A DNA stretch of 27,761 bases from a virus, in the IMG/VR virus record IMGVR_UViG_3300009158_000166, positions 1-27,761 of that record; one strand, 5' to 3'. Shown here in pieces: positions 1,809-22,402 of this stretch (positions within the stretch are counted from its first letter, which is position 1; every line of letters starts with the position of its first letter). The notes beneath the pieces are model-generated. The model did not search any database. It saw nothing but the letters and a program-made list of their open reading frames with translations, and was not told the DNA's origin. The position numbers and the translations under genes are program-made.

Positions 1809-1817
1809 TGTTGTCTC

Positions 1818-4760: not shown

Positions 4761-4768
4761 TATTTATT
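4761..4768 (-). promoter_or_regulatory. Possible T4-type late promoter element overlapping the giant gene's stop
   Basis: The minus strand reads AATAAATA here, one base from the T4 late -10 element TATAAATA, and is followed by TACTATG. It overlaps the TAA of the giant gene. If it is used, RNA would begin at about the first ATG of the 221-residue gene, which would favour that gene's second ATG (base 4726). In A+T-rich DNA such a match can arise by chance. Confidence 0.2.
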
Positions 4769-7700
4769 CAGGCAGCTCGGTGCTCTTTTGTTTTAAAAAT
4801 TCAGGGATTGCTCCTAGATTTTTAAGCAGTGTTACACCCGAACTAGCTAAACTTTCTCCTCTATCATACCAAACTTTTCCTAGTTTTCTTATGATTGTAA
4901 TACGTGTTCCTGCAGGAACAGTTTCAGTTAATCTAATATAAGGATTTGTGCCGTCAACTGTAAATTCAGGCTCAACTTCAACGTCTGCTTGAGGACTTGT
5001 TATATTTAGAGTTTGATCATAGACCATGACAGCATCCTTGCGAAGACGACGTCCTGCAACAAAGACTTCTATTTGATCGCAAGTATCAAATTCGACCGGA
5101 ATTGTATTTCTAGTCCAAGTTTTTTCGCTGAGCAAAGGAACATAAGATAGCGGACCTATTAATAAACTGCTTCCGTCGCTGACAAAATCTAATCTTTCCT
5201 GTTCCTCAGTATACGGTAAACTCTCAACTCGGCTAATATCTACCACAGGTGTATTTGCAGGATAAATTTCTGCAATAGCAGTTCCGAAACTACCTCTTCT
5301 TAGTTGCGATAAAATATTTTCATTTTTAACATAATAATCTATACGTTCACCGTTGATATAAATTGTTCCGGGAATGTTCCTTGAAAGGATCGGATCAAAT
5401 AAATTAGATGCGTCAGTTAATACAATTTCTTGATCATAATAGTATAAATCATTAACCAATATCACAGTCTTATCAATGCTAAAACGTTTAAAATGATGTA
5501 TGTTTAACATATCTTTAAACACTTCAAATCCTAGACTTTGTCTTTTTAAATAATTTCCAAACTGTACAATCTTAATTGTATCTGTTAGCACGGTTGGTTG
5601 TTGTAGGTAAACAAAATTTCTAGGTATAGAAACTTCATAATCTTTTTCCTGAGTTAGTCTTTGACCATTTAGGTATACCCAAACATAACTTGCACTGATT
5701 GGTTCTCTAGCAAGCTGATATCTAGATTTGCCGCCGGAATATTCATCGCTGATAATATTCATACTTGGATATTCACTAAACCAAGTGACTGTAATTGCGT
5801 CTCCTTGTTGTAGAGTAGTTGTGCTGTCATTTTCTACAAAACTTGTTCCGGCAAACACAATATTATTATTTTCAAACGTATATTGACTACCAACATCTAT
5901 AACAACTTTAATTTCGTCGCCGACTGTTAATACCTCTGTAGATATAGTTACGGTATTGTTGTTACCGTCATAAACATAATCTAAAAGATATCTTAATTGT
6001 TCATTGTTAACAAAAACTTCAATATTTTGTTGTGTAGCAGTATTTGTCGGTTGTAGTGGATCCTTTAAAATTGTAATAATATTATTTGTACCGTTATAGG
6101 TAACAAATTCAGTTTCTGGACCTGTTAACTTAGTTCCGTTGATTTCAACAAGAACTGACCCTGTAGCACTGGCTCTTTGTAAATTTACAAACCTATCAAG
6201 ATCGTAACTTAAAGTGCTACCATCAAATATTAAAACTTGTTGATTTACACGCACCACAGCTTGCTGACTAGAGTCAACATCTGCAGAAGCACCTAAACAG
6301 ATAATTTTTACAATTTGTCTACGCTCGGGACGATTTGCAAATTGAATTAACGTTTTTCCTGTTATGTCAGTTACATTAGTACTGTCAATAAACAATGCAT
6401 CAACTTGTACGCCATCAACTGTTACCAGTATGCTAGTAGTATCTATATAATTTGCTTTAGTTAAGAAGTTAGAAGTTTCTCCGTCTGCTTCAAATTCTTG
6501 ATAATCTAATAATGCAGTACCGCCAATACCTATGGCTAAAATTTCAATAACACTTCCTACAAGAGGTGCATCCACAAAAACTATTTCATTATTATTGTAA
6601 TCAATAATGTATGTTAAGGTACTATCAGTGCCGTCGCATTTAATCTTGTCAATATAAACCATCAAAGATGAAGATTCTAATATAGACAGACCAATCTTAA
6701 AATTTCTAGTAATTCCATTACCATTAACAATTCTTGACTGTAACGGAGTTGCGCCAGATTGTACAGTATGGAATACTTTGATGCTAACACTTTCTAATAC
6801 TTGGCCGGGAATATTTTCTTCTGGGGCAGGTACTTGATCTGGTCCAATAAATTTTCCGCCATCGATGCTGATATCTTCAGCCATTGTACCTGTAGCTGTT
6901 ACATAGGCTCCGCTCACTGCGCTAAGACTTCCACCAGAAAGGTTTGTATCAATGATATTAATGTCAGTGATATTAACAGTACCATCGCTTTCAAAAGGCC
7001 TGAATATTAAAGTATCTCCTGCATTAACTGTAATGTATTGACCAATTTCAACATTTTTAGTTACGCCATTGCCGATAAATGTTGGCATTTGAGCGTGGGG
7101 ATTTAATATTATTGTTGAGTCCCAATTTGTAGATCCGTCTGGGTATACAACAAAACTAGGGTCATCTATACGAACTGTTTCAGGAACTGGTATACCCGGA
7201 TCAAATACGACCCTTGGAGCTCCGACAGAGTCTAGTGTATCAATGCTACGAACTACTCCGTCACCTACACGTTTTAAGTATATAGAAATTCGTTGGCCCA
7301 GTGCAGGTGCGTCTGGAAGAGTTACGTAGGTTGTGCTACCGTCTGAGATATAGTGGAAATCGTTGTTAGATTCTACACTGTCCCAGGTATCTGTAAACCA
7401 AGGAAGAGCATCCCATCCACCACTAACATCAAATGTTGTGCCTTGAATTTGTACGCCGCCAAAATCAATTCCGGTCATAAGTTGATTTACTTCTTTACCT
7501 AACATGCCTGCAGTTGGGCTGTAATATTTGTTAATTCTATCAACTGCATCTAAGACAGAATCGTCCTTTTCATAAGAAATTGTAATAACATCTCCGGCGA
7601 CTGGTAGAGAAGCTAATTTTAATTTTCCTCTTAATAATTCATAAGTGTCAGATTCTAACGTATAGAATGTTAAAGAATAATCACTATCTAATGTTATTTC

Positions 7701-10700
7701 GCTGTTAATAGTTACAGATATTTTAGTCTTATCTCTTGTAGGAGGATAATTTAGATCATATATTGCAGTGAATCCGTTAGCAGTAAAAGTTTGTTCATAT
7801 TGATAGTTAGAATAAGAACCGTCTTTGGTTATTCTATCAAATCTTAATGCTAGATTAAAAGATCTAACCTTACCATTTCCTAGTATTGGCGATGCTTTAG
7901 CAATATTTGTCGAAGATGCATTTCCTCCAATTAGACTAACGGAGGCTGTTGTGTATCCAGATCCCGTAGTCAGCATTTTAATACCGGATACCTTGCCGTT
8001 AGATATATAGGCCTGTGCGGTCGCTCCTATACCGTCGCCGGTGATATAGACTTTAGGAGGAGTTTTATAATCCCCGCCCTGATTAGACAATTGAATATCT
8101 ATTATCTCGTATCCGTGATTATCGTTCCACCATTTGTAGGGGTACGTATTTAATTCAGAAGAATTAAACAGTATAGGCAATACTTGCCTAGTTTCTTTAT
8201 CGTACTTAGGAGGAACATCAAAGTCAGTTATAGCAGCGCCTTGGTGATCAATATCCGTATATCTACTTGTATATTCTCTAATAGTAGTTCTAAACGGTTT
8301 TACTTCTTCTAGGTATTGCTGGAAACTAGAAAGATTATCATTTTTATAATTTGGACGTTGGTCTAAATCGCCTACGTTATGTATAGCATTTAAAAAGCTA
8401 GTCTTAAAAGCCCAGTCAACATATAGTTGTTCAGAGAACACATATTTTATACTGGTGAAGAATAATTTATTCCATTCACTATCTAAATCGTCAATAAAGA
8501 TATTGTACTTTGCGGCATTTAAAATATTTCTTAATTCTCTGGTTGGTTGATTATCATAGACTGTTTCGTCATAGGTAGCAACATAGTCGTAAACTTTTAC
8601 ATTATATAAGTCTTTATCTATTTCAATAGTTCCGTTTTGTCTTGCTACTAATTCATAGTTAGATAGGATGCTTCCAGTTCCAGTCGCTACTCGCTGCAAT
8701 AATGCCCATCCACCGTTAGCATATTCTCGAACTCTTAACACATCTCCTAATTCAAAAGAATAATTTATTTCTTGAAAGACATTTGAAATTTCTCTAACAA
8801 TTCTAGTTGTAGAATTAAATCCGGTTGCATACCAATCTACATAATTCCAATAGTTAGTGGTATTATATGCCTGTACTTTAGATTTAAAAAATCCTTCTCT
8901 TACATTGTCCCAATAGTATACACTCCAATAATTTTTAAATGTAGAGTCTGATTTTACCAGTACAGAGAAACTACGCACAGAAACATCTGCTGTTGTATAT
9001 TTTCTTCCTTTTTGTAAAACAGTAACAGAACTTATTCTGCCTTGATTGTCTAACACTGCCTCTGCTTTTGCGCCGGTGCCGTCACCGACGATTACCACAG
9101 GCGGTACAGTTCTATAACCAAAACCACTATCTATAACATCAATTGTGTCAATTATACCATCAACAACATTTGCAGATAAAGTAGCAGGTTTTACTCGTAC
9201 AATACCTACTTCTAATAATTCTGGATATGTATCAATTGATACATCATATAAATTTAGAGAAGAACTAGGAAGCGGATCTACTTTGTTAAGATATTCAAAA
9301 TCGATTAAATCGCCGAACGGTTTAGTTGTTAGAATAGAATTGATCCTATCAATAACAATTTTTAAAGCAGTTGCCCTGTTTACAAAGATAGTCTGTATTG
9401 GTCTAAATTCTAATCCATATCGTTGTTTAGGTCTTAGAGTAGGATCAGGAACTGGATTACCTGATTGGTTAAATCCTACTAAACTGTCTATCCATTTTTG
9501 TTCTAGAGCCTCACTAGGTAGGCTAGATGCTTGCCCTTCTGTTAGCAGTTGATATTCTGTATGGATAACATTTGGTGTTCTTTCTGCTTTATAGTATTCG
9601 ATATTAAGCAGCGCAGAGTTTCCTTTAATTACTGAATCAAAATTATAAGCAAGGAATTTATCTTTGTCAATGATTGCAATAATTGGTATGCCCTCGCCAA
9701 TAGGATTAACTATTGAAGATGCAATATTAGCTGCAGAAATTTTTCTACCTGGAACTCCTTGAGGAATAACTGTTTTATTTTTTACCCAGAAATAATATCT
9801 TGTACCTGATTGAAGACCTGTTGTAGAATTAGTAAATTTCTTAACGCTATAAACAGCATTAGAATATGCAGGTTGTCCTGATATATTATTGGCTAAGCCG
9901 TCTACGGTGTCTGCAAGTTTTTTCCACTCAGTTGGAGTAACTGAACTTTCTACCCATTCATAGATATCTATAGAAGCTCCTGCTGCTAATTGGTTCCACA
10001 TACCAGAACGATATGCAATATCTCCTTGTTCGTGTGATGCCCATTTTACGGTGCTAAGATTCCACCATAGTGCTCCAACATTTTTTTCAAACCATGCTTG
10101 GTCTGAATCTATAACTACTTGATCCGTTCCGTTAGTATATGTTGCAGGGTCGTACGGTGTTTTAAATTTAATTTCTTCTTCTGCTGAACCTAAAATCTTA
10201 AACTTATTTGTATCAATAACATCAACATCTGCTAATTTAATATTATTTTCATCATCATATAAAGAAATACTCTTTATTAAATCAATGTTAACTAGATCAG
10301 TTTCTTGACTTATTATAGTAAGACTATTCTTTGTAGGATCTTTTCTAAAAATTCTAGTACGACCAACTTTTTCTCCAGACACTGTATAGTTAGGAGAACC
10401 AGTTACAACCACAGAAGCAGTAGCATCTAAGGAATAGCCAAATGCTTCATTACTTCCAAAATCTGCTTGTAATTTTTCTGAGAGTAGATAAGTTTGATCT
10501 TTTAATTCAAACACATAAACATCACCGTGATAGCCTAGTGTTTCAGAGAACGAGGTTCCACTAAAGCTAGTTCCTCCAAAAAGTGTAGGCACTACATAAG
10601 AAGTATTTTTTGCACCTACTACAATACGCTCTGTTCTTTCGCTGATAGATAAACTAAATCCAAAATATTCGTTGGTTAAGTCTTCAAAACTTTGTAGTTT

Positions 10701-13700
10701 TTGTTTTAATCTAAATTTAGGAATTGTAGAATCTGTGTCGTAATTAAACACATATACTGCTCCTTGATCTTGTAAACTGATATCTGCTTTAGGACTAGAT
10801 ACCACTAAGGTTGTTCCTGAATAATCTATATCAATTGCAAAGCCAAACAGATCGCCTGTCAGTATACTTTCATCAGCTACTGTATCACTGATAGCAGGTA
10901 AAGACTCAGCATTGATTGTTTGTACTAGGTTATAAAGTCCGTAGATATTTTTTTGATAAATGTATACTTTGCCAGACATTGTGGTTGCTTGTGCTGATAT
11001 TAAACTCCATGGAGCGGCTAACGGAGTTTCATTGTAGCTCTTATAAGAAGAATCTGTTCCAGGATCAGTAAGTTGATAATAATTTTTGTTATATTTGACA
11101 ACTGCTCCTTCGCTGTATTCTTGATAACCACTCCATGTTCCTTGATAGTTGGCGAAATATTGACCGTCACTTAGCGGGGCTCCTATAACCAATACTGAAC
11201 CGTCTCTACTCATAGCTAGGCTTGAACCAAATCGGTCTCCCTCTTTAACTAGTTCTGCTAATTGACCTGACGATAATAAACCTTCAGCTAATATAACTGT
11301 AGAATCATTATCAGTAGTAGCAGGATTGGAAGGTAACGAACTTTGTGTATGTAACGGGTTTAGTTTTTGCCATTGGCCGGAGTCGGTGGTAATTGTGCTG
11401 CCGTCACCGTTTTGATCTTCCAAAGATTGCCACAACGCATTATCATGCCATACTATCGACCCAGTTTCGTATCTAGTAGCACCTGTAGAATCGTAAACTC
11501 CTCGATAATTTTGATTTTGATCAAACTGCCATTCTTTAGCAATAGTTGGATATTTCTTAAAAATTCTCTTGCCCATATTCAATGGCAACGCTAAAGAATA
11601 ATAATTTAACGATCCGGCTGTAGATTCAGTTACAACAATTTTAACATATCTTGTTGTTGCAACATCAAAACCAGATACATATTGAACCTGTGTGACTGGT
11701 CGATTATCTAGATAATATGTAACACCTGTGGTATATAAAGTTCCACCGATATCTAAAGAACCATTTAGACTATCTGCACTTAAACTAATAGGATGCTTAT
11801 TTGTAACAGTTCCTTCTACCGGATTAGGAAAATAAACGTTGCTTAGATCTGTTTGATCAAAGATATAAGTGTTTCCAACTTCGAATGTTAGGTCGGGCCA
11901 GTATTGATCATTGATATAATACTTGTATCCTGTATCAAGACCTTGAGCAGGGCCGACGGTAACAGAGAATGTAATTGTTTGAGAATTATCTTCTGTTATA
12001 GGAGCATACTTGTATAGGTAAACTTTACCGGGCGTGTCATTATTACCAGGAGCAGATATTGCCATGTAGTAATTTCCAGAATCTACACCAAGCACAATCT
12101 TTTCACCAAAATTTTCATTTCCGTTAGGACGGGGACTAATAAAAGTAAATTTCTCTACCCAGTTTTGTCCACTCCATTCATACATGGTTACTGCACCTTG
12201 TTTTTTATATCCATTCCCAGTTCCATTGATATTAGCTGTAAGGATTGTTGCAGGTTCCCAATCATCTGTAGCTAAATTTATTGTGCTACCGTCGCCAATA
12301 AGATTAATCTTAGCTCTCCATAATCTGCCTTGATATAATACAATATCCCCCTTTGTGTATGATGCGGAAGTAGAAAATATATCTTTATAATCAGATGTAA
12401 CTGTGTCAGCATTTGGTGAGCCTACTGCTAACCATTTACCGTCTGGGCTAATTGCTAGTGTTTCTCCGAATACTCCGGATGTAGAAATATTGTTAGATTT
12501 AAGCAATGTTTGAAAAGGTTTTAATCCTTCTGCTCGTTCTATGTAAGCAACAACCATATTGCTACTAGGCATTGATGAGATTGTTTGGGCTAAACTATCT
12601 GAATAAACTACTGCTTGACCGTTACGTCTTGGTGCAGATATTCCGTATTCTGCAAGATCAGTAACATTATATTGTTTTTGTTTTTCAATAACTTCCCACC
12701 TATTTGATCCATTGTTATCAACCCAAATTTTTGCACCTGTAGTAAGGGCCGCAATTTGATCCGGATCCAATAACTGGTAAGAATCAAATCTGGATTCTGC
12801 AAACAGTTCAAGATTTACAATGGTACTAGCATCAAAAGAATTATCTGATGGTCCTTTTGCTACCTGGATGGCGAGAGAACTAGTAGTTGGCACTTCAGTA
12901 ATTTTATGAAAACCTGTGATATTTTCTATATTTCTAATACCAAATATATCACCAACAGACAATCCGTGATTCCTATTAAAACCTAATTCTACTCTAGTTT
13001 TATTTGTTGCAACACTGGTTACAACTAGTAGTGGGGATACATTGTATCTCAACGTTGCCCAAGAATTTTCATCGAATGTTATCCAGATGTGTGTATTTTC
13101 TTTAAATGTAGTATTGTCAAGAGTTAGTATATCATCACGTGTAGGAAGAATATAGTCAACATCAAATACATTAACATATCCTGCAACTCTAGGTGTTAAT
13201 GTATATTTTTTAACAGGATTTATGTCTTTGTTAAATGGAGCTGTTGCAATTGTAAAATCATTTACTGGTACGCGAAGATATAGATCTAATATATCACTAG
13301 CGATGTCAACTGGGGCTAATAAAATCGGTTGAGGATTTAATTTTAAATCATTTTTATGAATTCTAAATTCTGTTTCTATTGCTTGATCAGTGCCGCCCAA
13401 TCTACCAACACGGAATGCCCATTCTTCATTAAGTTCTACACTGCTACTATTAGTTCTACTTAATTTTTCAAATACTTTGGTAACAGAATTAGCTGTCCCT
13501 TTTTCTCTAATAAATCCTTGATAGATTCTAAACTGACTAACATTATCTTCAGCCATGGCCTGTAGGTATTCTCTAGTTTGATAGCCTATGACATGTCGAC
13601 TTAGGTCACGTTGACTAGAGCCAAGACCGTCTGCATCAGATTCGTAATAGTCCTGGAATTGGTTAATCCTATAATCAAAATTAGCAACTAGACCTTTCTT

Positions 13701-16700
13701 AGGATCAGTGTCTAATTTTGACCAAACAGCATCGTTGAATGTTTCTGAGCCTTGTTGATTTTGTAGTCCTACCCAATTATAAGATTTGTACGACACAATA
13801 TCACCTAATCTATAATCAGTATAAGGACTCCATTGTTGAATGTTTACATTATCAAACAAGAATCCTGGACTTGTGTAATCGCCGTCCCAGTCAACTGTAC
13901 GGAATCCGCGACTTTTAATACGTTCTTGACGATACCCTGTAGTCTTGTCATAGATAACATCATTAAAAACTGTGCGGTCGTCAAACAGTACAACATGCTC
14001 TTTTAATACGTAATTTAATTTTAAGAAATATATACCATCGTTGGTATTTACTGTGCTAACAGCTACCTTTTGAAAATCTCTCTTGATGTTTAAGAAGATA
14101 GGTAATAATGGAGTTCCGTCGCTTTTAAAAATTTCATAGTCATAAAAGCTATCAAATAAATTATCAGGAACACCACTTAGTATGTTTACATTAACTTCTT
14201 CAGCACTAGGACTTAGTGTTAGTAAACTGCCTACAGCCCAATTATGTTTTGTCCAGAATAAAAATTCCTTACAGCTAGTTTGCCAGTTGTATGCTGTTTG
14301 AGTTTCCGAATTGTAACGATCAAAATTAAATCCTATAAACTTTAAATAGGCTTCATAACCTAACATAAAATCTACAACACTTTGCACAGTTGTTAAAATT
14401 GTGCCGTAATACATTTTTTTAGTTTTAAGTTTGTTAAATGTTTTTCTAAAATAAGCGTCAACACCGCCAACTACAGGCAACTTAGGCAGGGTTTTCCATA
14501 ATGCTTTATCAAATGTACTAGTACTAGTATGAGACTTTAAAGCACGATAGTAAACATTTTGAGTTCTAACAATATCACCGTTGTTATAAAGTTTGTCTGG
14601 GGCCCAATCGTAAAACTTTGCGCTAACTCCGCCAACACTAGTTAAAGGATCAGTGCTGCTGGCAATAGCCTCAAAATAATTAAAATACGATAATTGATTG
14701 TCATATCCTCTTACTTTCCAGCCTTCTGCTAATTTTTCAACCAAGACTCCGCTATAAACAAGACTAGCAATTGGGGAACTAATATTAAAAATAATATCAT
14801 AGTTTTCATTAGGAACATAGATACTGCTGGAAGTTGAACTAGGATTTTTACTATCTAACAAATACTTTTGTTCTGTTTGATCTACAAATCCAGAAATTCT
14901 AGACGATATTCTAACGTCTAAATTATTAATACGTGTTATTAACTGTTCAGGATCTAAATTTTTACTTTTTATATAACTAGAGATAAAAGATATTAAGCCA
15001 GATACTTTGATCCCATCTGCTGTAGGAACTTTCATGTCTGAAAGTTTAACAAATACTCCGGTGCTACTAAAAACAGTTTGTCCTAATTTATTAACAGTCA
15101 TTCTAGACTTATCAAAGTTGTCAGTGATAAATTCAAAGGGCTTTAATAATGATAATGCTACTATAACAGAGAATGGCCATTCTGAACTACTTCTCCATGC
15201 AAATTCCGAAGGACTAATATCGCCTAATTTATAATCTCCGTTATTATTGACCAAGGTAAAGTTTGTAGCCATACCAGAGTCTAAAGGACTTAACAATTTG
15301 CCGTCGCCATCAGCAGGGATATGCCTCAATATTGATTTTCTAGCATATCGATCATAGGTGCCTGCACGTGGACCTTGACGAATAATACCCTGACTAATAT
15401 CTTCCCATAGTATTAAGTTTCCAGAAGTATATGGTGCAGGTCCGTATTCGCTTTCCCACCATACGGGCTTTTCACTAAATCCTAACATTTCCCACGGACA
15501 GGTATGTGGCCGAGAGGTATCATAAAACCATAGATATGCGCCTCTCCAGTAGCCTGGAAGATTTTTTAGACCTGTAGGGTCTGTCATATTACTATAGGTA
15601 TAGGTAAAACTATTTTGTCTGTCAAAGTACAAATCATTATTTGTATAATCTATATCGGTATTAGATACCCAACGTAAAAAGTCTGGGGCAACAATTGCAT
15701 CCAAATCTTGTTTGGTATAGAGTGCATTTCCGTAATATCCGCCGAAGATTGCATCTATGTCAAATAATGTATGATTGTATTCTTGTTTGATATTGTTATA
15801 GATTCTACGCTCTAATTCTAAAATAGCATCATCTCTATAGTCATCAAATGCAGTAATGATACTGCCATCGTGACCTTGGATTACATCTCTAGGTGTTTGA
15901 AATGTGTCATCAAGAAATTTCTGTGGTAGATATTTTTTATATAAACCTAATTTTGTAGGGGTATAAGGAATATAGTTAAAGGCGGTAGAAACATATTCTT
16001 TTATTTTAATAGAATCGCCTTCCGATAATGTCGCAGATAATCTTACAAAACCAAAGGTATCGTCAAATGTATAGTCTGATCCGTTGATAAGTTGCACATC
16101 ATTTAGATAAACATAAACTGCTCTATCGCTGAGATCTGTTAAATTAAATTTTTGACTTAGAGCAAATACTTTAATACCTTCATCCTCAACAGTATAGTCG
16201 ATGTCAGTATGGGCGCCACTGCCGATCATATCAGTACCGGAGAAAGGATTTGATATATCTTTGGCTAATCCCATATTAGATATAACGGTATCTACAAAGT
16301 CTGCAACATTATCTTCAGGCATTGTTTCTGTTATTCTAGTGATAAACTCATTTTTAAATGTTGAATAAGATCTAGAATTATATCTTAGAGATTTAATAAG
16401 ATTAGTATTTTTGTCACAAAGAACATCGATAGCTAGAGGTGCTACTCCAGAGTGTTTTAAAAATCTTGTGGCTTTATTTTGATACCCGTCTAAATTTCTA
16501 AGATTACTGTTACCAGGATAAATTCCGGTAAATCTATCATCAACATCAAGAGCCAAACTAAGGTGATCAATAGCCTGTCCTAATGTAAAAGTTTTTAATT
16601 CTGCATTTAGTGGGTTCTTTTCAAGACCGTGTGGTATTGCATAGTATCCTTGATCAGGATCTAAATCTGTAAAAATTTTAACTGAAAGAACATCATTTAT

Positions 16701-18989
16701 TAAAAAATTATTTGCAAAAGTGAATGTTCCTTCTACTCGTGTATAGCTATTTTTAAAATGTGTTCCGTTTAAGTAAAATAAAATTTTAGAATTAGCATCA
16801 TTAAATAATTCCCAATTTACTGTTGTCAGTGTTACAGAATTTGTTACGTCTGTAATAATCTTACTATCTAATATCGGTTGCAAATACTCGGCATCTGTTG
16901 TAGTCCACGAATTTCCAAAGTCATCCAACGGGTTAAATCTATAAAATCCAGTGTTTAGATTAATTGGAATTGTTTGTTGGTTTAACGAATAAGTGAATGA
17001 ATCAGAATCAAGATTAAACTTAAATTGTATATCACCAACATTGTCTATGTTTAGATAATCTAAACTAAAACCCAATTCTCTGTCAGCAACGCTATTGCCA
17101 ATTTTATATTCTAAAATGGGTGTTCCAATAAATGTACTAACTGGGTAGGAATCTGAATTGCCAAAACTAACTCCGTTAACATCAAATATATCAAACAGTG
17201 GGCTTTGATTTACTTTAGTTTTATCTTGGCTTCTTACCCAGTTTGTTCCGTTGAAATAATACATTAGCCCTTTATTAGCATTGCCGGATCGTATCAGTAC
17301 ACATTCGTCTAGTAAAGGTTCAGAATCGTCTACAGATTTTAATGCTATTTGTTTACGATTGTTGTGAGTAATAAAACTAACTTGGTATATTTTATTATTT
17401 GCCAATGTATCAGTATCTGCAATTACTAATATTCTTGCACCGTTATATAAAAACTCTCCGTCAATGCTGTAACCTTCACTACCTTCAATTGTTGAAAACA
17501 CATCTGTAGTAAAGGTATCTATAAAATCTACCGGAGTTTTTGCAACGCTGCCGTGATTGAATAATTGTAGATTAGGTCTAAATTCAATAATTGGTCGTTT
17601 GGCTCTAAAGCTATCCCCTGCTTCAAAATCACTGCCGTTAAGTTTGTGGGCCTGTTCTAATGTGGCTTTGTGAAACCAACGATTATATCTAGACCAAGGA
17701 TTACTATCAATACTTGCTCTGCAAATAGTAATATAATCTTTTTCTCCGGGATAGGCCGTTGCATCATCAAAAGGATCAGTATCAAATCCTGCATTATCAA
17801 AAATAACTTCTGGGACTTGACTTGTAATGATAGGAACTTCTAATGATGAAAATTTAATTAATTCTATAGAGCGTCCAACTTTTTCAATTAGCCAATTATC
17901 TTTAGAATATTTTCTTGGGGTAACATTTCCGCCAAATCTTACAATTAGTCCGTTAGTGAATTCAACCCCATTGCTGCTTGTGTACGTTTCTTTTCCTATA
18001 ATTTCTTTATCAATATCAATACTGGTATTGCTGTCAATGTCTTGAATTAAAAATCTACCAAACCTATCAGGATTAATTGCACTTTGATAATAAAGTATAT
18101 CAGGAGAGTCATATGGAACTTCAAATGTAACTGTGCCATTAGTTGTACCGTTATTTGTGATTCCTGACGAATAATCAAACTTAGATGTCTGTACACTATC
18201 TTCAACTATTTCCCAATCTGTACCTTCTGTGATTGTTCCGTCAACGCTGGCATTAACGTAGGTTTTTGCTCTCCACAACTTGCCGTCATATACTGCTAGC
18301 TGATTTGGAATATAAGGAAGTTCTGGTCTATATTTTAAACTACCGGTGTCATAGGCAGTTCTAATAAAGAAACCTTCTCTAGGACTGTTAACATTAAATT
18401 TATAAGTTTGTCCTCTATACAAAGTAATCGTAGGGTTATTTGTTAGACCGTCGGGATAAAAAATCCAAGTAGAGGTAGTACCTTGTCTTACTCTATAGGT
18501 ACTAACAATGTCATTACCTTGCCCAAGAACCTTAACGCTAGGAGGTCCGTTAGGAACCCAATAATATTCACGAAAGTTTACAAACTTATCCCATTCAACG
18601 GGAGGAGTCCAGCTGTAGTGTTCTTGGCTGGTAATTTTATCATCGCGTTCATTATAGTTGTTAAAAAATTGTAATTGATTTTTAAAATCAATATAATCAT
18701 AAAAATTCTCAACCTGACCTTGCTCGTTGCTGATTACTACTCCAGGCTCAAGCTGATATTTGCTTCTTAAAGTAGTATCATCATCAAGATAAATGTCAGA
18801 AGCGTTATATGTTTTCCCCCAACGACGACCAATATACCCAGTTGTTTTTTGTAAGACGCCAGGTTGAACCAAAGGATCGACCACAGCAGCCATAAATTTA
18901 TCATTGGTTTCTGTTTTAAATACCTGAGGCAATAGGTCAACGGTTCTTCTAATAGGAAGTCCACTTTGAGGAAAAATTTGATCTGCCAT
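4764..18989 (-). CDS. Giant modular virion structural protein (4741 residues)
   Basis: One uninterrupted frame fills half the window. The start is firm: AAGG lies 8 nt before the ATG, and the gene begins 14 nt after gp6 ends. The N-terminus ('LPIRRTVDLLPQVF', 'GYIGRRWGKTY', 'RSKYQLEPGVV', 'FVNFREYYWVPNGPP') and the segments 'NPWSRYNRWFH' (near 433) and 'RPHTCPWEMLGF' (near 1158) resemble, from memory, giant structural proteins of marine T4-like phages. Seven aromatic CBM5/12-like modules occur near residues 222, 1461, 1719, 2206, 2500, 2620 and 2983. Six FG-GAP-like blades span about 2170-2890, with a cupredoxin-like stretch at 2340-2470. Glycine-rich repeats lie near 3283 and 3628, and a conserved 'GGVQIQGTTF...GGWDALPW' block near 3845. 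The last 1000 residues hold repeated 'VYLNG'-type beta domains. No enzyme motif, intein or membrane segment was seen. It occupies the place of T4 genes 7-10. A peripheral baseplate and host-recognition role is inferred. Confidence 0.85.
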   Translation of the reverse strand: MADQIFPQSGLPIRRTVDLLPQVFKTETNDKFMAAVVDPLVQPGVLQKTTGYIGRRWGKTYNASDIYLDDDTTLRSKYQLEPGVVISNEQGQVENFYDYIDFKNQLQFFNNYNERDDKITSQEHYSWTPPVEWDKFVNFREYYWVPNGPPSVKVLGQGNDIVSTYRVRQGTTSTWIFYPDGLTNNPTITLYRGQTYKFNVNSPREGFFIRTAYDTGSLKYRPELPYIPNQLAVYDGKLWRAKTYVNASVDGTITEGTDWEIVEDSVQTSKFDYSSGITNNGTTNGTVTFEVPYDSPDILYYQSAINPDRFGRFLIQDIDSNTSIDIDKEIIGKETYTSSNGVEFTNGLIVRFGGNVTPRKYSKDNWLIEKVGRSIELIKFSSLEVPIITSQVPEVIFDNAGFDTDPFDDATAYPGEKDYITICRASIDSNPWSRYNRWFHKATLEQAHKLNGSDFEAGDSFRAKRPIIEFRPNLQLFNHGSVAKTPVDFIDTFTTDVFSTIEGSEGYSIDGEFLYNGARILVIADTDTLANNKIYQVSFITHNNRKQIALKSVDDSEPLLDECVLIRSGNANKGLMYYFNGTNWVRSQDKTKVNQSPLFDIFDVNGVSFGNSDSYPVSTFIGTPILEYKIGNSVADRELGFSLDYLNIDNVGDIQFKFNLDSDSFTYSLNQQTIPINLNTGFYRFNPLDDFGNSWTTTDAEYLQPILDSKIITDVTNSVTLTTVNWELFNDANSKILFYLNGTHFKNSYTRVEGTFTFANNFLINDVLSVKIFTDLDPDQGYYAIPHGLEKNPLNAELKTFTLGQAIDHLSLALDVDDRFTGIYPGNSNLRNLDGYQNKATRFLKHSGVAPLAIDVLCDKNTNLIKSLRYNSRSYSTFKNEFITRITETMPEDNVADFVDTVISNMGLAKDISNPFSGTDMIGSGAHTDIDYTVEDEGIKVFALSQKFNLTDLSDRAVYVYLNDVQLINGSDYTFDDTFGFVRLSATLSEGDSIKIKEYVSTAFNYIPYTPTKLGLYKKYLPQKFLDDTFQTPRDVIQGHDGSIITAFDDYRDDAILELERRIYNNIKQEYNHTLFDIDAIFGGYYGNALYTKQDLDAIVAPDFLRWVSNTDIDYTNNDLYFDRQNSFTYTYSNMTDPTGLKNLPGYWRGAYLWFYDTSRPHTCPWEMLGFSEKPVWWESEYGPAPYTSGNLILWEDISQGIIRQGPRAGTYDRYARKSILRHIPADGDGKLLSPLDSGMATNFTLVNNNGDYKLGDISPSEFAWRSSSEWPFSVIVALSLLKPFEFITDNFDKSRMTVNKLGQTVFSSTGVFVKLSDMKVPTADGIKVSGLISFISSYIKSKNLDPEQLITRINNLDVRISSRISGFVDQTEQKYLLDSKNPSSTSSSIYVPNENYDIIFNISSPIASLVYSGVLVEKLAEGWKVRGYDNQLSYFNYFEAIASSTDPLTSVGGVSAKFYDWAPDKLYNNGDIVRTQNVYYRALKSHTSTSTFDKALWKTLPKLPVVGGVDAYFRKTFNKLKTKKMYYGTILTTVQSVVDFMLGYEAYLKFIGFNFDRYNSETQTAYNWQTSCKEFLFWTKHNWAVGSLLTLSPSAEEVNVNILSGVPDNLFDSFYDYEIFKSDGTPLLPIFLNIKRDFQKVAVSTVNTNDGIYFLKLNYVLKEHVVLFDDRTVFNDVIYDKTTGYRQERIKSRGFRTVDWDGDYTSPGFLFDNVNIQQWSPYTDYRLGDIVSYKSYNWVGLQNQQGSETFNDAVWSKLDTDPKKGLVANFDYRINQFQDYYESDADGLGSSQRDLSRHVIGYQTREYLQAMAEDNVSQFRIYQGFIREKGTANSVTKVFEKLSRTNSSSVELNEEWAFRVGRLGGTDQAIETEFRIHKNDLKLNPQPILLAPVDIASDILDLYLRVPVNDFTIATAPFNKDINPVKKYTLTPRVAGYVNVFDVDYILPTRDDILTLDNTTFKENTHIWITFDENSWATLRYNVSPLLVVTSVATNKTRVELGFNRNHGLSVGDIFGIRNIENITGFHKITEVPTTSSLAIQVAKGPSDNSFDASTIVNLELFAESRFDSYQLLDPDQIAALTTGAKIWVDNNGSNRWEVIEKQKQYNVTDLAEYGISAPRRNGQAVVYSDSLAQTISSMPSSNMVVAYIERAEGLKPFQTLLKSNNISTSGVFGETLAISPDGKWLAVGSPNADTVTSDYKDIFSTSASYTKGDIVLYQGRLWRAKINLIGDGSTINLATDDWEPATILTANINGTGNGYKKQGAVTMYEWSGQNWVEKFTFISPRPNGNENFGEKIVLGVDSGNYYMAISAPGNNDTPGKVYLYKYAPITEDNSQTITFSVTVGPAQGLDTGYKYYINDQYWPDLTFEVGNTYIFDQTDLSNVYFPNPVEGTVTNKHPISLSADSLNGSLDIGGTLYTTGVTYYLDNRPVTQVQYVSGFDVATTRYVKIVVTESTAGSLNYYSLALPLNMGKRIFKKYPTIAKEWQFDQNQNYRGVYDSTGATRYETGSIVWHDNALWQSLEDQNGDGSTITTDSGQWQKLNPLHTQSSLPSNPATTDNDSTVILAEGLLSSGQLAELVKEGDRFGSSLAMSRDGSVLVIGAPLSDGQYFANYQGTWSGYQEYSEGAVVKYNKNYYQLTDPGTDSSYKSYNETPLAAPWSLISAQATTMSGKVYIYQKNIYGLYNLVQTINAESLPAISDTVADESILTGDLFGFAIDIDYSGTTLVVSSPKADISLQDQGAVYVFNYDTDSTIPKFRLKQKLQSFEDLTNEYFGFSLSISERTERIVVGAKNTSYVVPTLFGGTSFSGTSFSETLGYHGDVYVFELKDQTYLLSEKLQADFGSNEAFGYSLDATASVVVTGSPNYTVSGEKVGRTRIFRKDPTKNSLTIISQETDLVNIDLIKSISLYDDENNIKLADVDVIDTNKFKILGSAEEEIKFKTPYDPATYTNGTDQVVIDSDQAWFEKNVGALWWNLSTVKWASHEQGDIAYRSGMWNQLAAGASIDIYEWVESSVTPTEWKKLADTVDGLANNISGQPAYSNAVYSVKKFTNSTTGLQSGTRYYFWVKNKTVIPQGVPGRKISAANIASSIVNPIGEGIPIIAIIDKDKFLAYNFDSVIKGNSALLNIEYYKAERTPNVIHTEYQLLTEGQASSLPSEALEQKWIDSLVGFNQSGNPVPDPTLRPKQRYGLEFRPIQTIFVNRATALKIVIDRINSILTTKPFGDLIDFEYLNKVDPLPSSSLNLYDVSIDTYPELLEVGIVRVKPATLSANVVDGIIDTIDVIDSGFGYRTVPPVVIVGDGTGAKAEAVLDNQGRISSVTVLQKGRKYTTADVSVRSFSVLVKSDSTFKNYWSVYYWDNVREGFFKSKVQAYNTTNYWNYVDWYATGFNSTTRIVREISNVFQEINYSFELGDVLRVREYANGGWALLQRVATGTGSILSNYELVARQNGTIEIDKDLYNVKVYDYVATYDETVYDNQPTRELRNILNAAKYNIFIDDLDSEWNKLFFTSIKYVFSEQLYVDWAFKTSFLNAIHNVGDLDQRPNYKNDNLSSFQQYLEEVKPFRTTIREYTSRYTDIDHQGAAITDFDVPPKYDKETRQVLPILFNSSELNTYPYKWWNDNHGYEIIDIQLSNQGGDYKTPPKVYITGDGIGATAQAYISNGKVSGIKMLTTGSGYTTASVSLIGGNASSTNIAKASPILGNGKVRSFNLALRFDRITKDGSYSNYQYEQTFTANGFTAIYDLNYPPTRDKTKISVTINSEITLDSDYSLTFYTLESDTYELLRGKLKLASLPVAGDVITISYEKDDSVLDAVDRINKYYSPTAGMLGKEVNQLMTGIDFGGVQIQGTTFDVSGGWDALPWFTDTWDSVESNNDFHYISDGSTTYVTLPDAPALGQRISIYLKRVGDGVVRSIDTLDSVGAPRVVFDPGIPVPETVRIDDPSFVVYPDGSTNWDSTIILNPHAQMPTFIGNGVTKNVEIGQYITVNAGDTLIFRPFESDGTVNITDINIIDTNLSGGSLSAVSGAYVTATGTMAEDISIDGGKFIGPDQVPAPEENIPGQVLESVSIKVFHTVQSGATPLQSRIVNGNGITRNFKIGLSILESSSLMVYIDKIKCDGTDSTLTYIIDYNNNEIVFVDAPLVGSVIEILAIGIGGTALLDYQEFEADGETSNFLTKANYIDTTSILVTVDGVQVDALFIDSTNVTDITGKTLIQFANRPERRQIVKIICLGASADVDSSQQAVVRVNQQVLIFDGSTLSYDLDRFVNLQRASATGSVLVEINGTKLTGPETEFVTYNGTNNIITILKDPLQPTNTATQQNIEVFVNNEQLRYLLDYVYDGNNNTVTISTEVLTVGDEIKVVIDVGSQYTFENNNIVFAGTSFVENDSTTTLQQGDAITVTWFSEYPSMNIISDEYSGGKSRYQLAREPISASYVWVYLNGQRLTQEKDYEVSIPRNFVYLQQPTVLTDTIKIVQFGNYLKRQSLGFEVFKDMLNIHHFKRFSIDKTVILVNDLYYYDQEIVLTDASNLFDPILSRNIPGTIYINGERIDYYVKNENILSQLRRGSFGTAIAEIYPANTPVVDISRVESLPYTEEQERLDFVSDGSSLLIGPLSYVPLLSEKTWTRNTIPVEFDTCDQIEVFVAGRRLRKDAVMVYDQTLNITSPQADVEVEPEFTVDGTNPYIRLTETVPAGTRITIIRKLGKVWYDRGESLASSGVTLLKNLGAIPEFLKQKSTELPE
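4880..6672 (-). repeat. C-terminal series of 'YLNG' beta domains in the giant protein
   Basis: Several divergent units share the plan (V/I)-x-V-x-(L/V/I)-(N/D/A)-G-x-x-(L/V), then a strand-turn-strand, then G-x-x-(I/V)-x-I. Examples are 'LMVYIDKIKCDG' (near residue 4107), 'ILVTVDGVQVD' (4183), 'VLVEINGTKLTG' (4277), 'IEVFVNNEQLR' (4323), 'VWVYLNGQRLTQ' (4434) and 'IEVFVAGRRLRK' (4638). A different module, 'GTIYINGERIDYY' followed by 'LRRGSFGTA', lies between them near 4540. Earlier single units occur near residues 735, 957 and 3756. Such repeats are common in phage structural and receptor-binding proteins. Here they would form a chain of beta sandwiches. Confidence 0.55.
7923..8107 (-). repeat. 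Glycine-rich repeat, copy 2, in the giant protein
   Basis: Residues about 3628-3689 read 'GGDYKTPPKVYITGDGIGA' then 'GKVSGIKMLTTGSGYT'. It shares with copy 1 the plan G-x-Y...PP-x-V-x-I-x-GDG-x-GA-x-A-x-A, then G-(R/K)-(I/V)-S-x-(V/I), then Y-T-T-A-(D/S)-V-S. The two copies are about 350 residues apart. Confidence 0.65.
8975..9140 (-). repeat. Glycine-rich repeat, copy 1, in the giant protein
   Basis: Residues about 3284-3339 read 'GFGYRTVPPVVIVGDGTGA' then 'GRISSVTVLQKGRKYT'. It is clearly homologous to copy 2, though the 'GSGY' of copy 2 is 'GRKY' here. Repeats of this type occur in many phage tail and fibre proteins; their fold is uncertain to me. Confidence 0.65.
9915..10038 (-). repeat. 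CBM5/12-like module, copy 7 (weak)
   Basis: Residues about 2984-3025 of the giant protein, 'HEQGDIAYRSGMWNQLAAG' and a closing 'TEWKKL'. This is the least typical copy, with a long polar stretch before the last tryptophan. It lies after the propeller region. Confidence 0.35.
10998..11129 (-). repeat. CBM5/12-like module, copy 6, inside propeller blade 3
   Basis: Residues about 2621-2664, 'YSEGAVVKYNKNYYQLTD' and a closing 'APWSLI'. It lies between 'VLVIGAPLSDG' and 'GKVYIYQK' of the third blade. Confidence 0.5.
11356..11489 (-). repeat. CBM5/12-like module, copy 5, between blades 2 and 3
   Basis: Residues about 2501-2545, 'YETGSIVWHDNALWQSLED' then 'NGDGSTI' and 'GQWQKL'. It shares the 'GDGSTI' step with copy 4, so these two are probably the closest pair. 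Confidence 0.55.
11580..11965 (-). other. Possible cupredoxin-like beta module in the giant protein
   Basis: Residues about 2343-2470 read 'LTFEVGNTYIFDQTDLSN', then 'HPISLSADS', then 'YTTGVTYYLD' and a final 'YYSLAL'. The order (strand, G-x-x-Y-x-F-D, a His-Pro, a Y-x-x-G-V-T turn) recalls cupredoxin-like modules of marine phage fibres. I do not see a full copper site. A partial parallel ('ITLYRGQTYKFNV') is at residues 185-198. Confidence 0.35.
12249..12372 (-). repeat. CBM5/12-like module, copy 4, inside propeller blade 1
   Basis: Residues about 2207-2247, 'YTKGDIVLYQGRLWRAKIN' then 'GDGSTINLATDDWEPA'. This is the best match to the Y-x-x-G-D-(I/V)-V-x-(Y/F)-x-G-x-x-(W/Y)-x-(A/C)...W plan. 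It lies between 'WLAVGSPNAD' and 'GAVTMYEW' of the first blade. Confidence 0.6.
13723..13832 (-). repeat. CBM5/12-like module, copy 3
   Basis: Residues about 1720-1756, 'WSPYTDYRLGDIVSYKSYNW' through 'TFNDAVWSKL'. All the hallmark aromatics are present. It precedes a helical-looking, polar segment ('RDLSRHVIGYQTREYLQAMA'). Confidence 0.6.
14487..14606 (-). repeat. CBM5/12-like module, copy 2
   Basis: Residues about 1462-1501, 'WAPDKLYNNGDIVRTQNVYY' through 'STFDKALWKTL'. The ending (F-(N/D)-(D/K)-A-(V/L)-W-x-(K/T)-L) matches copy 3 closely. Confidence 0.6.
18204..18320 (-). repeat. CBM5/12-like module, copy 1
   Basis: Residues about 224-262, 'PNQLAVYDGKLWRAKTYV' then 'GTDWEIVED'. The first half matches copy 4 ('LWRAK' in both). 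The usual 'GD' is 'NQ' here. It follows an 'ITLYRGQTYKFNV' strand pair. Confidence 0.5.
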
Positions 18990-19003: not shown

Positions 19004-22000
19004 TTATGATGATACGATACCTGATGCACTTACACGAATCTCTGATGCTGAGATTGAGGTTACAATAACAATGTCATCTACTGTTGCGCCGCTGACAAAT
19101 ATTTCATCTGTGGCGCTTTGAATTTCAAAAAGACTACCAAAACTCTGTGTTGGTTGCCTTGGAACAATTACTAAGTTACTTAGATCCGGGCTAACTGCAT
19201 TGGTAATATAAGTGATTAATTCGCCTAGATAAAATCTATCTCCGAAGTCCCAATTGGCTACATCGAAGAAATCGTTAATGGCAGAAACAATTCTTACCTT
19301 TAGGTCATTATCATTGATTGTTTTATTAGGATTCTTAACTACTTTAAATTGTGCTTGGAGAGCATATTCTGCTGTTGAACCAAATAGAACTTTGTAATTT
19401 ACAGGATGATAAATGATTTCATCACTGATTGATTTAATTTCACCTAGTGCATTACCAAAACTTATTCTTAAACTATCGCTATTAGGGGCTTCAGGTTTTG
19501 TTACAGCGCCACCGGATAGATATTTTCTAAAACTGTTATCATAAGATTTTGTTAATAGATAAACATCAATGATATTGCTAACGCTAGGATCAATTCTACG
19601 ATCTACATTAGCATTGTGAATATATTGAAAATTTAATCTTGATCTGCCAATGTTAGCATTGTATGTAGATTCTAATATAAATGAATTTGATGCGTAATCT
19701 ACACGTTTAACACGATCTTCCGCACTGTCGTAAAAATATACTAGATCTCTGTCATTAAAATCTGTAACACTAACTGCATTTTCCTGTTGTCTTATTTTTA
19801 TAACTTCTTGACTATTATCAAAATAATTGTAGACAATATTACCAAATGTATCTTTGCTTTCAACAAAGAACAAATATTTTAAATCTTGATCGCTGCCAAC
19901 AATTTGTTCAAACGAATCAGGATTATCAATTACACCGTCATCATCTCTATCAGAAAATGCAATCTGCACTTCTTCTGCACTTTGAAACCCATCTTCATAT
20001 TTGATAGAGTCATCTACTTCAAATATCAAAGATTCTTTGATAGGCACAGTATCTGTAGGTTTAGGATTTATACCTAAAATTCTAATTTGATCTTTAATTA
20101 CTTTTCCAGTTTTACTATCGTAGATCTTCTGTCCGGAATCGTAATAAAATCTATTTTGTTCTAGGCTACCAAAAATATAGTTTAACACTCTTACGCGAAT
20201 TTTGTATTCGTCGGCTTCTTTTGTAAATGACAACAACCAGCTAGTGTCAACGTTGTTGTTAGTTGTGTCACCTGCTTTGCCCAATGCAAATGAATTAACT
20301 ACATCAATGTTAGGAGCTGTGATAATTTTCCAGGTGGATGTTGTTACATCAAATCTTAGACCAAAGTTTTTATTTTCTGCACAAAGATTAACAATTTGTG
20401 TTTCTAATGCATCAGGTAAATTATTAACAAACTTAGGTACAATCCTAGATGCAATTGCTCCTGTTGGAATAATGTCATTGAAAACAATTGGACCTTTGCC
20501 TGTGCTCAATACACCTCGATTAGCATTTGTACCGTCACCAACAACTCTAATAATTTTTGTCCACATGCGATCAGTTTGATCAGGATCTAATGCATTAGTT
20601 GTTACCAATTCTCCACGTTTGAAACTTTTTCCTGCAGGAGGTATAAATTTTATCAACGAACCCGAGGTTACATATTTTAAAGTATTGGTTGTGTACCCGC
20701 CTACTTTTTGCAGTGTCAAATCAATAGCATTTAAAAAGTATCCAGTACTTTCATTTACATCGTTGGTAATCTGTGTCCAAGTTGTATTTGTGTCAGTGAA
20801 TAAGATTTTATCGTATTTTGTAAAATAGTAATTATAAACACCTGTGCTGGTAAACAAAGGTTCTATACTCTTTCTAATAAAATTAACTGAGTCAATTCTA
20901 TTAATTGGTTTAAATGCTAGGCTTTTTTCGCTTTCTTTTTTGTATATTAATCCGTCATCAGCAAAAACATTTACGCTAGAATATTTTCCGCTGGCATCAA
21001 TAATGTCAAAATTACGACTAACACCGCTAGATGTTCTGTTAACAGCTTTAACTTTTAAAATATCTTGACTGCTAGTTAGCGGTGCAAGATTATAATCTTC
21101 CGCAGTGATCATTCTATTTTGTGTATAGTATTGTGCAGGTGCTTTTGTTCTAATGCTTTCAACTGTTTCAGCAGGAACGCTGTTGCTGACTGTATATTTT
21201 AAACTCATGCTTATGCTAAGTGTTTGTCTAGAACCTGATTTACTTACATAAGGAATATTAATATTAATTCCTCTCATTTCATTAGGCAAAATGCTATAAG
21301 ATAAACCATTACTTGTACGATAGTATACACGGAACGGCCCTTGAGGTAAGTTTCCATAAACTCCATCAGCAAAAATTAAATCTATTCTGTCACTGTTTTT
21401 TGTAGATATTGCATAGATGTTTCTAATATTTTTTTCTATAGAATTATAAGCAATGTTGTTTCCTGTAAGAGCTGAAACTTTGGTCCACTGATCTTGTTGC
21501 GCACCGTTAGATGCTAAAGAAAATAACCAAACATCGTCATTGTTAATATTATTAGCATCTACTGCAACTTTTTCATTTGTAGTTGGAACTGCTACTGAAA
21601 AGTCAGCAAGTTCTAAACTACCTTGTTTGAACATAAAATAAAATCCAGTGTTAGGGCTTGATGTTCCTTTACCGTCATTTCTATAAATGAATCCAATTTG
21701 ATTTCCAGGAACAGGTGGTTCTTCGTAAATTTCTTCACTGCCCTTAAATGCTGTGCTTACTAGTTCAAAAGGCATGCTGCGGCCGGCAACATTTTTCTCA
21801 TAGGAAAATATAGGAACATCTCTATTAGCTGTACGGAAACGATATTGGTCTGTAGGAATTCCCTGTATTATAGCGTTACCTTGACTACGACCAAATTCTG
21901 TATTATCTGCCATTGCTGCATTTAGTACAGCAACAAACTGTTCTTTCCAGTTGGCGTTTGTAGGATCATTCCAAATAATTGTTTGACGTGCTAGATTTTT

Positions 22001-22402
22001 TCCGTTAGCATCTAGAAGTGCTTCTGTTGTGCTTACTGTATCAAACTTCAACAGACCTTTGCTGGCAATATTCCTCTTAGCATTATAACTCAACATACGA
22101 GCTATTCTAAGGACGCTTTCTCTACGAGAAGCTAATTCAATAAAGTTTTCACGACTAGCAAGATCAATACGGAAAGCAAGACTCTGACCAAGGAAAGCAA
22201 CCGCGTCAATCAGGGCAAGATATTCACTACTTTCGATATAATCGTTGAAGTCTTCTGGATAATTTTCACGCAGATACGTGATAATAACACGACGGAGATT
22301 TTCAAAATCGTAGCTTTTAAAGTCAGCATTTTTAAAGGTCTGATAGATCCTTGTCCAATCCTGATTGATAATTAAATTTGTTTGTCTTGTAGTAGTTGTC
22401 AT
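19004..22402 (-). CDS. gp6: Baseplate wedge protein gp6, enlarged
   Basis: gp6 forms the ring that links the six baseplate wedges in T4-like tails. The N-terminal 110 residues are characteristic: 'DWTRIYQTFKNADFKSYDF', 'YLALIDAVAFLGQSLAFR', 'ASRENFIELASRRESVLRIA' and 'MLSYNAKRN'. The block 'PAQYYTQNRMITAEDYNLAP' near residue 415 matches the gp6 core, and 'AVSPDLSNLVIVPRQP' lies near the C-terminus. At 1132 residues it is far longer than T4 gp6 (660). The extra length appears to lie mainly between about residues 440 and 900, a beta-rich region that contains the acidic loop 'DRDDDGVIDNPD' near residue 817. The gene follows gp25 by 42 nt, with an AGGGCG ribosome site 5 nt before the ATG, and precedes the giant gene by 14 nt. 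Confidence 0.9.
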   Translation of the reverse strand: MTTTTRQTNLIINQDWTRIYQTFKNADFKSYDFENLRRVIITYLRENYPEDFNDYIESSEYLALIDAVAFLGQSLAFRIDLASRENFIELASRRESVLRIARMLSYNAKRNIASKGLLKFDTVSTTEALLDANGKNLARQTIIWNDPTNANWKEQFVAVLNAAMADNTEFGRSQGNAIIQGIPTDQYRFRTANRDVPIFSYEKNVAGRSMPFELVSTAFKGSEEIYEEPPVPGNQIGFIYRNDGKGTSSPNTGFYFMFKQGSLELADFSVAVPTTNEKVAVDANNINNDDVWLFSLASNGAQQDQWTKVSALTGNNIAYNSIEKNIRNIYAISTKNSDRIDLIFADGVYGNLPQGPFRVYYRTSNGLSYSILPNEMRGININIPYVSKSGSRQTLSISMSLKYTVSNSVPAETVESIRTKAPAQYYTQNRMITAEDYNLAPLTSSQDILKVKAVNRTSSGVSRNFDIIDASGKYSSVNVFADDGLIYKKESEKSLAFKPINRIDSVNFIRKSIEPLFTSTGVYNYYFTKYDKILFTDTNTTWTQITNDVNESTGYFLNAIDLTLQKVGGYTTNTLKYVTSGSLIKFIPPAGKSFKRGELVTTNALDPDQTDRMWTKIIRVVGDGTNANRGVLSTGKGPIVFNDIIPTGAIASRIVPKFVNNLPDALETQIVNLCAENKNFGLRFDVTTSTWKIITAPNIDVVNSFALGKAGDTTNNNVDTSWLLSFTKEADEYKIRVRVLNYIFGSLEQNRFYYDSGQKIYDSKTGKVIKDQIRILGINPKPTDTVPIKESLIFEVDDSIKYEDGFQSAEEVQIAFSDRDDDGVIDNPDSFEQIVGSDQDLKYLFFVESKDTFGNIVYNYFDNSQEVIKIRQQENAVSVTDFNDRDLVYFYDSAEDRVKRVDYASNSFILESTYNANIGRSRLNFQYIHNANVDRRIDPSVSNIIDVYLLTKSYDNSFRKYLSGGAVTKPEAPNSDSLRISFGNALGEIKSISDEIIYHPVNYKVLFGSTAEYALQAQFKVVKNPNKTINDNDLKVRIVSAINDFFDVANWDFGDRFYLGELITYITNAVSPDLSNLVIVPRQPTQSFGSLFEIQSATDEIFVSGATVDDIVIVTSISASEIRVSASGIVSS

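Follow-up and report, generated by a model that had tools for sequence, protein, structure and literature searches.

The baseplate operon and its giant gene

The window analyzed here is a 27.8-kb virus record (27,761 nt), taken whole, from an uncultured T4-like jumbo phage. Its minus strand carries a T4-like baseplate operon with gp53-like, hub-like, gp5-like spike, gp25-like and gp6 genes, followed by a giant gene and then by fibre-like genes; apart from gp6, these names were assigned from gene order and inspection of the sequences. The two genes on which the analysis centers are:

4764..18989, minus strand: open frame of a giant baseplate protein of 4,741 aa (P0001), the next gene after gp6 (phrog_10938, E 0)
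19004..22402, minus strand: gp6-like baseplate wedge subunit (phrog_10646, E 1e-293; phrog_219, the family of T4 gp6, E 3e-21)

Residue n of the giant protein starts at DNA position 18989-3(n-1). The giant gene directly follows the gp6-like gene, where T4 has the order 6-7-8. Profile comparisons with hhalign detected no sequence homology between the giant and T4 gp6 to gp11; in particular, a 17-member profile of the giant gave a probability of 0.1% against T4 gp7, a weak test with a single T4 gp7 sequence as its target. The giant is homologous to virion giants of six jumbo phages, namely PA5oct (gp355), Phosso, Atu_ph07, SCTP-2, RaK2 and Vibrio 2.275, with about 25-30% identity and the same gene position after gp6; the homology, which for the PA5oct, RaK2, Atu_ph07 and SCTP-2 giants falls within phrog_10938, spans residues 1-1947 and 2868-3600. 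The record of the PA5oct homologue bears an ESI-MS/MS note, which supports a virion location of the giant protein. The closest homologues are uncultured contigs. One scan through the conserved body found at least 587 relatives, from which 80 were kept, and 42 related sequences were used for the propeller described below.

Further downstream, two consecutive fibre-like genes (24-1808 and 1818-4088, minus strand) are homologous in an N-terminal region of ~90 residues (phrog_15511), and the second also matches tail collar families. In one relative (L043), the giant's frame ends at 2,355 codons, within the propeller, and the locus goes on, either as a real truncation or through an assembly error.

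The two conserved regions of the giant flank a slot, which holds 129-1,444 residues of unrelated sequence in PA5oct, RaK2, SCTP-2, Vibrio 2.275, Phosso and Atu_ph07. Unlike the window, the slots of PA5oct, RaK2, Atu_ph07 and SCTP-2 have no detected FG-GAP propeller, and when the slot of six cultured relatives was scanned with Pfam, no carbohydrate-binding domain reached significance; a LamG-like domain in the SCTP-2 slot and a CBM-like stretch in the Vibrio 2.275 slot were left unconfirmed by the Pfam scan and were set aside. Repeats of the form GxGYxxxPxVxxxGDGxGAxA (phrog_438-like) are numerous in the slot of Phosso and Atu_ph07 (L005 and L006, residues ~1700-3178), and in the window's giant they occur at residues 3271-3343 and ~3626-3700.

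A predicted integrin-type propeller

In the window, the slot region contains FG-GAP repeats: FG-GAP_2 (PF14312) scores 60-77 bits, against a cut-off of 23, with matches in all 42 related sequences. The corresponding features are:

10311..12677, minus strand: predicted integrin-alpha-type seven-bladed propeller, residues 2105-2893, from AlphaFold2 models and FG-GAP_2
12495..12677, minus strand: blade W1, degenerate, residues 2105-2165
10473..10664, minus strand: blade W6, residues 2776-2839, whose 2-3 loop carries a non-CBM insert of 27 aa

An AlphaFold2 model of window residues 2040-2985, calculated from an alignment of 42 sequences (the window and viral contigs), has a mean pLDDT of 68, its low part being mainly a 157-residue lineage-specific insert and the ends. 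Between residues 2105 and 2893 it superposes on integrin alpha-M and alpha-L, with a Z of 37.8 and an rmsd of 3.2-3.3 for 358-359 aligned residues. A model of a homologue without the 157-residue insert (L083) reached a pLDDT of 78.7 and a pTM of 0.80 and gave a Z of 38.0 with an rmsd of 3.0 over 357 residues; the two models are not independent, most alignment sequences being common to both. First Foldseek rows such as SF3B and DDB1 were set aside as generic propeller matches (rmsd 25-30).

The models predict that the FG-GAP units close into a seven-bladed propeller of the integrin alpha type, as an earlier note on this DNA had proposed for six blades. The structural alignment begins at model residue 66, which is residue 2105, and covers the integrin from its residue 1; since the match spans the whole integrin head propeller from its first residue, the predicted fold has seven blades, a degenerate first one that had been missed and the six that the note had recognized. 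The inserts described below are separate modules and not blade strands. Calcium loops are not found: the 1-2 turns, which would hold DxDxDG-type loops, are 3-5 residues long, the sole match to the pattern is at residue 2525, inside module 2, and DxDxDGxxD occurs in 0/42 sequences. The fold is therefore integrin-type, and the protein is not an integrin.

Searches with the propeller as query returned nothing from viral contigs (single-sequence search) or from 50,697 phage records (tblastn). The propeller zone of one relative matched the phage records only through the conserved C-terminal flank of the zone, and no relative turned up when prokaryote genomes were scanned with a profile of the propeller.

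CBM5/12-like modules in the blade loops

Six small modules resembling CBM5/12 (chitin-binding type 3) lie in the giant, three of them in the propeller, together with a larger extra domain:

12198..12404, minus strand: module 1, in the W2 2-3 loop, residues 2196-2264 (CBM_5_12, 24.7 bits alone)
11355..11522, minus strand: module 2, in the W3-to-W4 4-1 connection, residues 2490-2545 (profile match to module 1, E 7e-18)
10974..11171, minus strand: module 3, in the W4 2-3 loop, residues 2607-2672 (CBM_5_12, 16.1 bits alone; module 1 profile, E 1.6e-9)
18180..18335, minus strand: further module copy, residues 219-270 (module-1 HMM, E 6.7e-6 in the window and to 9e-15 in relatives)
14514..14606, minus strand: further CBM5/12 module, residues 1462-1492 (CBM_5_12, 30.5 bits)
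13719..13832, minus strand: further CBM5/12-like module, residues ~1720-1757 (CBM_5_12, 20.2 bits)
11535..12005, minus strand: residues 2329-2485, an extra domain of 157 aa specific to this lineage, in the 3-4 turn of W3, on the opposite side from the modules

Against the curated CBM_5_12 cut-off of 26.2 bits, only the module at 1462 passes alone, and module 2 gives no match. The three propeller insert profiles match one another (E 7e-18, 1.6e-9 and 4e-8), and CBM_5_12 matches occur in 35/42 related sequences; the inserts are thus CBM5/12-like above chance, and the three propeller modules are homologous. The PA5oct and Phosso giants have a CBM5/12-like stretch at the 1462 site, as in the window, and the module at ~1720-1757 is a clean insertion, with an alignment gap in six named phage relatives. 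Modules 1 and 3 are present in every propeller-bearing relative that was checked; module 2 is absent in two (L055 and L079).

The earlier note had placed CBM5/12-like modules in the same loop of its blades 1 and 3, here W2 and W4, and all of the motifs by which it bounded them are present (AVGSPNAD at 2188-2195, GAVTMYEW at 2265-2272, VIGAPLSDG at 2601-2609 and GKVYIYQK at 2673-2680). Both inserts do lie in the strand 2-3 loop, with 72 and 67 residues between strands. The span that it assigned, 10998-12372, has its ends within modules 1 and 3, and the whole propeller extends beyond it on both sides. Its blade 2 (W3) indeed lacks an insert at the 2-3 loop, which has 6 residues there, but module 2 in the connection to W4 had been overlooked, as had the three copies in the protein body. 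Its blades 4-6 have 2-3 loops of 9, 27 and 9 residues, and the 27-residue insert, in its blade 5 (W6), is not CBM-like.

Overall, the spacing from strand 2 (GSP/GAP) to strand 3 (GxVxxY) across the six blades W2-W7 is 72, 6, 67, 9, 27 and 9 residues. The 1-2 and 3-4 loops are 2-7 residues long and near-constant in the 42 sequences, with the W3 3-4 turn as the exception. Nearly all large inserts are found in the 2-3 and 4-1 loops; they include the three CBM-like modules, the insert in W6 and the lineage-specific inserts of up to 104 residues in the W7 loop (L061) and 108 residues between W4 and W5 (L055). For integrins, the FG-GAP loops and the 1-2 and 3-4 loops are documented at opposite ends of the blade (PMC3192720). 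Because strand order places the 2-3 and 4-1 loops on one face, the topology supports the display of all three propeller modules on that face, and the earlier claim that the modules share a side would extend to module 2. The 157-aa domain in the W3 3-4 turn is present in the window and its closest kin (L010, L012 and their kin), most other relatives having about 0-3 residues there; it resembles part of phrog_708, a baseplate wedge subunit of 1,383 positions (E 1e-12).

The earlier description of glycan-binding faces fared less well. In ChiA1, the surface residue Trp687 binds chitin (PMC3701571). The core aromatics, at the positions of ChiA1 Tyr662, Tyr675 and Trp696, are aromatic in all sequences of each insert alignment. 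A counterpart of Trp687 is absent: window modules 1 and 2 have no aromatic in that segment, none is consistent in their relatives, and module 3 has a Tyr there in only part of the family. Sequence support for sugar binding by the modules is weak.

A stretch like module 1 also occurs, as a remote match (7b5h_AE, E 0.002), in All3316/Cis13 of the thylakoid-anchored contractile injection system of Anabaena, so contractile tails may have had this type of module for a long time. All3316/Cis13 was analyzed for its transmembrane domain in a paper that makes no mention of carbohydrate or chitin (PMC8894136).

Divergence or replacement of the propeller block

The propeller behaves as a unit within the giant protein. 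In one relative (L088), it is cleanly absent, and body homology runs past its place without a gap. In the tree, the position of L088 is weakly supported; L088 may have lost the propeller, and module 2 may have been either gained or lost. Within the window lineage, a scan for divergent segments identified the following block:

9798..13166, minus strand: recombined or divergent block, maximal segment residues 1942-3064, with a sharp drop near 2880 (also given as ~1942-2893); its score is reached by 0/300 block permutations

In the body, the window and its relatives L010 and L011 are roughly equidistant, with 92-94% identity and a synonymous difference of about 0.5 before the block. In the block, L010 and L011 are 90% identical, whereas the window is 73-74% identical to either; the amino-acid difference is 26-27% for the window against L010 or L011 and 10% between those two, compared to 4-13% for all pairs in the flanks. 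The synonymous difference in the block is 0.64-0.67 between the window and L010 or L011 and 0.52 between L010 and L011. Faster amino-acid change alone would not raise the synonymous difference in this way, which speaks for recombination with a divergent allele. In the window lineage, the block was replaced or diverged as a unit, the pattern that a recombined cassette would leave.

The fastest-changing parts include modules 1 and 3. Compared with L010 and with L011, the window diverges most in module 3. Module 1 shows a 25% difference even within the L010-L011 pair, against 6-13% for the other segments of their propellers. Wherever comparisons of the block were informative, dN/dS came out below 1, and positive selection is not indicated.

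Proposed function of the decorated propeller

Block exchange, baseplate location and small modules on one face are best fitted by a host-contact device. We consider it somewhat probable that the propeller is an exchangeable host-contact domain of a giant baseplate wedge protein, projecting outwards with its modules facing the cell and swapped as a cassette. As a scaffold at the baseplate periphery, the propeller would then project outwards and keep the three modules near one another, facing the cell surface, where weak, multivalent contacts with surface polysaccharide or other envelope structures may add up through avidity. Such contacts would help to anchor the baseplate before sheath contraction, and host-driven selection would swap the block between related phages. 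The propeller fold, the one-face inserts, the cassette behavior, the fast change of modules 1 and 3 and the virion location count in favor of this reading; the dN/dS below 1, with no positive selection seen, counts against it, as do the missing ChiA1 surface Trp in modules 1 and 2, the same module type at three body sites, which suggests a structural building block, and the dispensability of module 2 (L055, L079) and of the propeller (L088, cultured relatives).

A docking role is a serious rival, as the same fold recurs in the protein body, and we give it a substantial though minority chance. The propeller and its modules would then be protein-protein surfaces at the baseplate periphery, engaging fibre or other wedge proteins; the CBM5/12 fold would serve only as a small, stable insert that binds no sugar, and co-evolution with an exchanged fibre partner would account for the changes in the block. 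Integrin-type propellers act as protein-binding scaffolds, and the core aromatics of the modules are kept with the ligand Trp gone in modules 1 and 2, the module type recurs at 219-270, 1462-1492 and 1720-1757, and the remote match in All3316/Cis13 comes from a protein whose paper does not mention carbohydrate. However, the body and the surrounding genes do not need the propeller, which is absent from L088 and from all cultured relatives seen, and fast block-wise divergence confined to this region, between giants that are otherwise equidistant, is less expected of a fixed docking site, although a co-exchanged fibre would explain it. The repeated insertions (the 157-aa domain, W7 in L061, W4-W5 in L055 and the module at 1720) and the absences of module 2 and of the whole propeller could also reflect neutral domain creep, by which small CBM-like and other domains pile up in the tolerant loops of a mosaic giant, in a large phage genome, with no selected function. 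This explanation appears improbable, because none of the propeller-bearing relatives checked lacks module 1 or module 3, core residues are invariant at about 45-60% overall identity, and dN/dS is well below 1.

A narrower form of the host-contact reading is a distinct class of phage host-recognition device, in which an integrin-type propeller borne by the wedge giant of a jumbo-phage lineage reads host glycans with one decorated face, through several weak CBM5/12-derived modules, and is cassette-swapped at host change; we regard this form as tentative and rather unlikely.

Comparison with known systems

Integrins carry the alpha-I domain as an insertion on the upper face of their propeller. 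The phage propeller resembles the integrin alpha propeller in its seven FG-GAP-type blades (Z ~38 over ~360 residues) and in the extra domains in the 2-3 and 4-1 loops of that face. It differs in its 16-19% identity, the lack of DxDxDG calcium loops in the 1-2 turns and the baseplate context, and its inserts are CBM-like, whereas those of integrins are von Willebrand A domains. An integrin-like propeller fold is not new in phages, given structure-library matches in other phage proteins: S-TIM5 H6WG31, Atu_ph07 A0A2L0UZX4 and the uncultured A0A6J5S3H5 have FG-GAP repeats and predicted integrin-like propellers, and are listed as short proteins of 393-473 aa, compared to the 4,741-aa giant.

The 'evolved' Dit of Lactobacillus phages J-1 and PLE3 is a baseplate core protein whose CBMs protrude outwards for host contact (PMC6115969). 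It shares with the giant the presence of CBMs on a core baseplate protein, but it is a siphophage Dit hub with larger CBMs of other families and no propeller. Phage phi11 gp45, PRD1 P2 and phiKZ gp131C contain beta-propellers of five, six and seven blades, respectively, in receptor-binding or peripheral tail proteins (PMC6115969); they are separate gene products rather than a domain of a wedge giant, and no CBM5/12 modules in their blade loops are described in that work. The earlier note knew of no phage protein arranged in this way. The exact combination, a phage baseplate protein whose integrin-type propeller bears CBM-like inserts, had no description in the literature searched, an incomplete collection, but the 'evolved' Dit, phi11 gp45 and phiKZ gp131 are close analogues.

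The arrangement adds to known phage adhesion architecture, with the CBM-bearing 'evolved' Dit and the phi11 gp45 and phiKZ gp131C propellers as its precedents, and integrins and phages have apparently come, by convergence, to insert domains on the same face of the propeller. Its recognizable marks, namely FG-GAP repeats, the restriction of modules to 2-3 and 4-1 loops, and a divergent block between quiet flanks, make it searchable in metagenomes and testable as an isolated domain. For most uncultured jumbo phages, little is known of what determines host range, and tail fibres are the usual place to look; in this case, the apparent exchangeable contact domain, with its integrin-type fold, belongs to a wedge protein of the baseplate.
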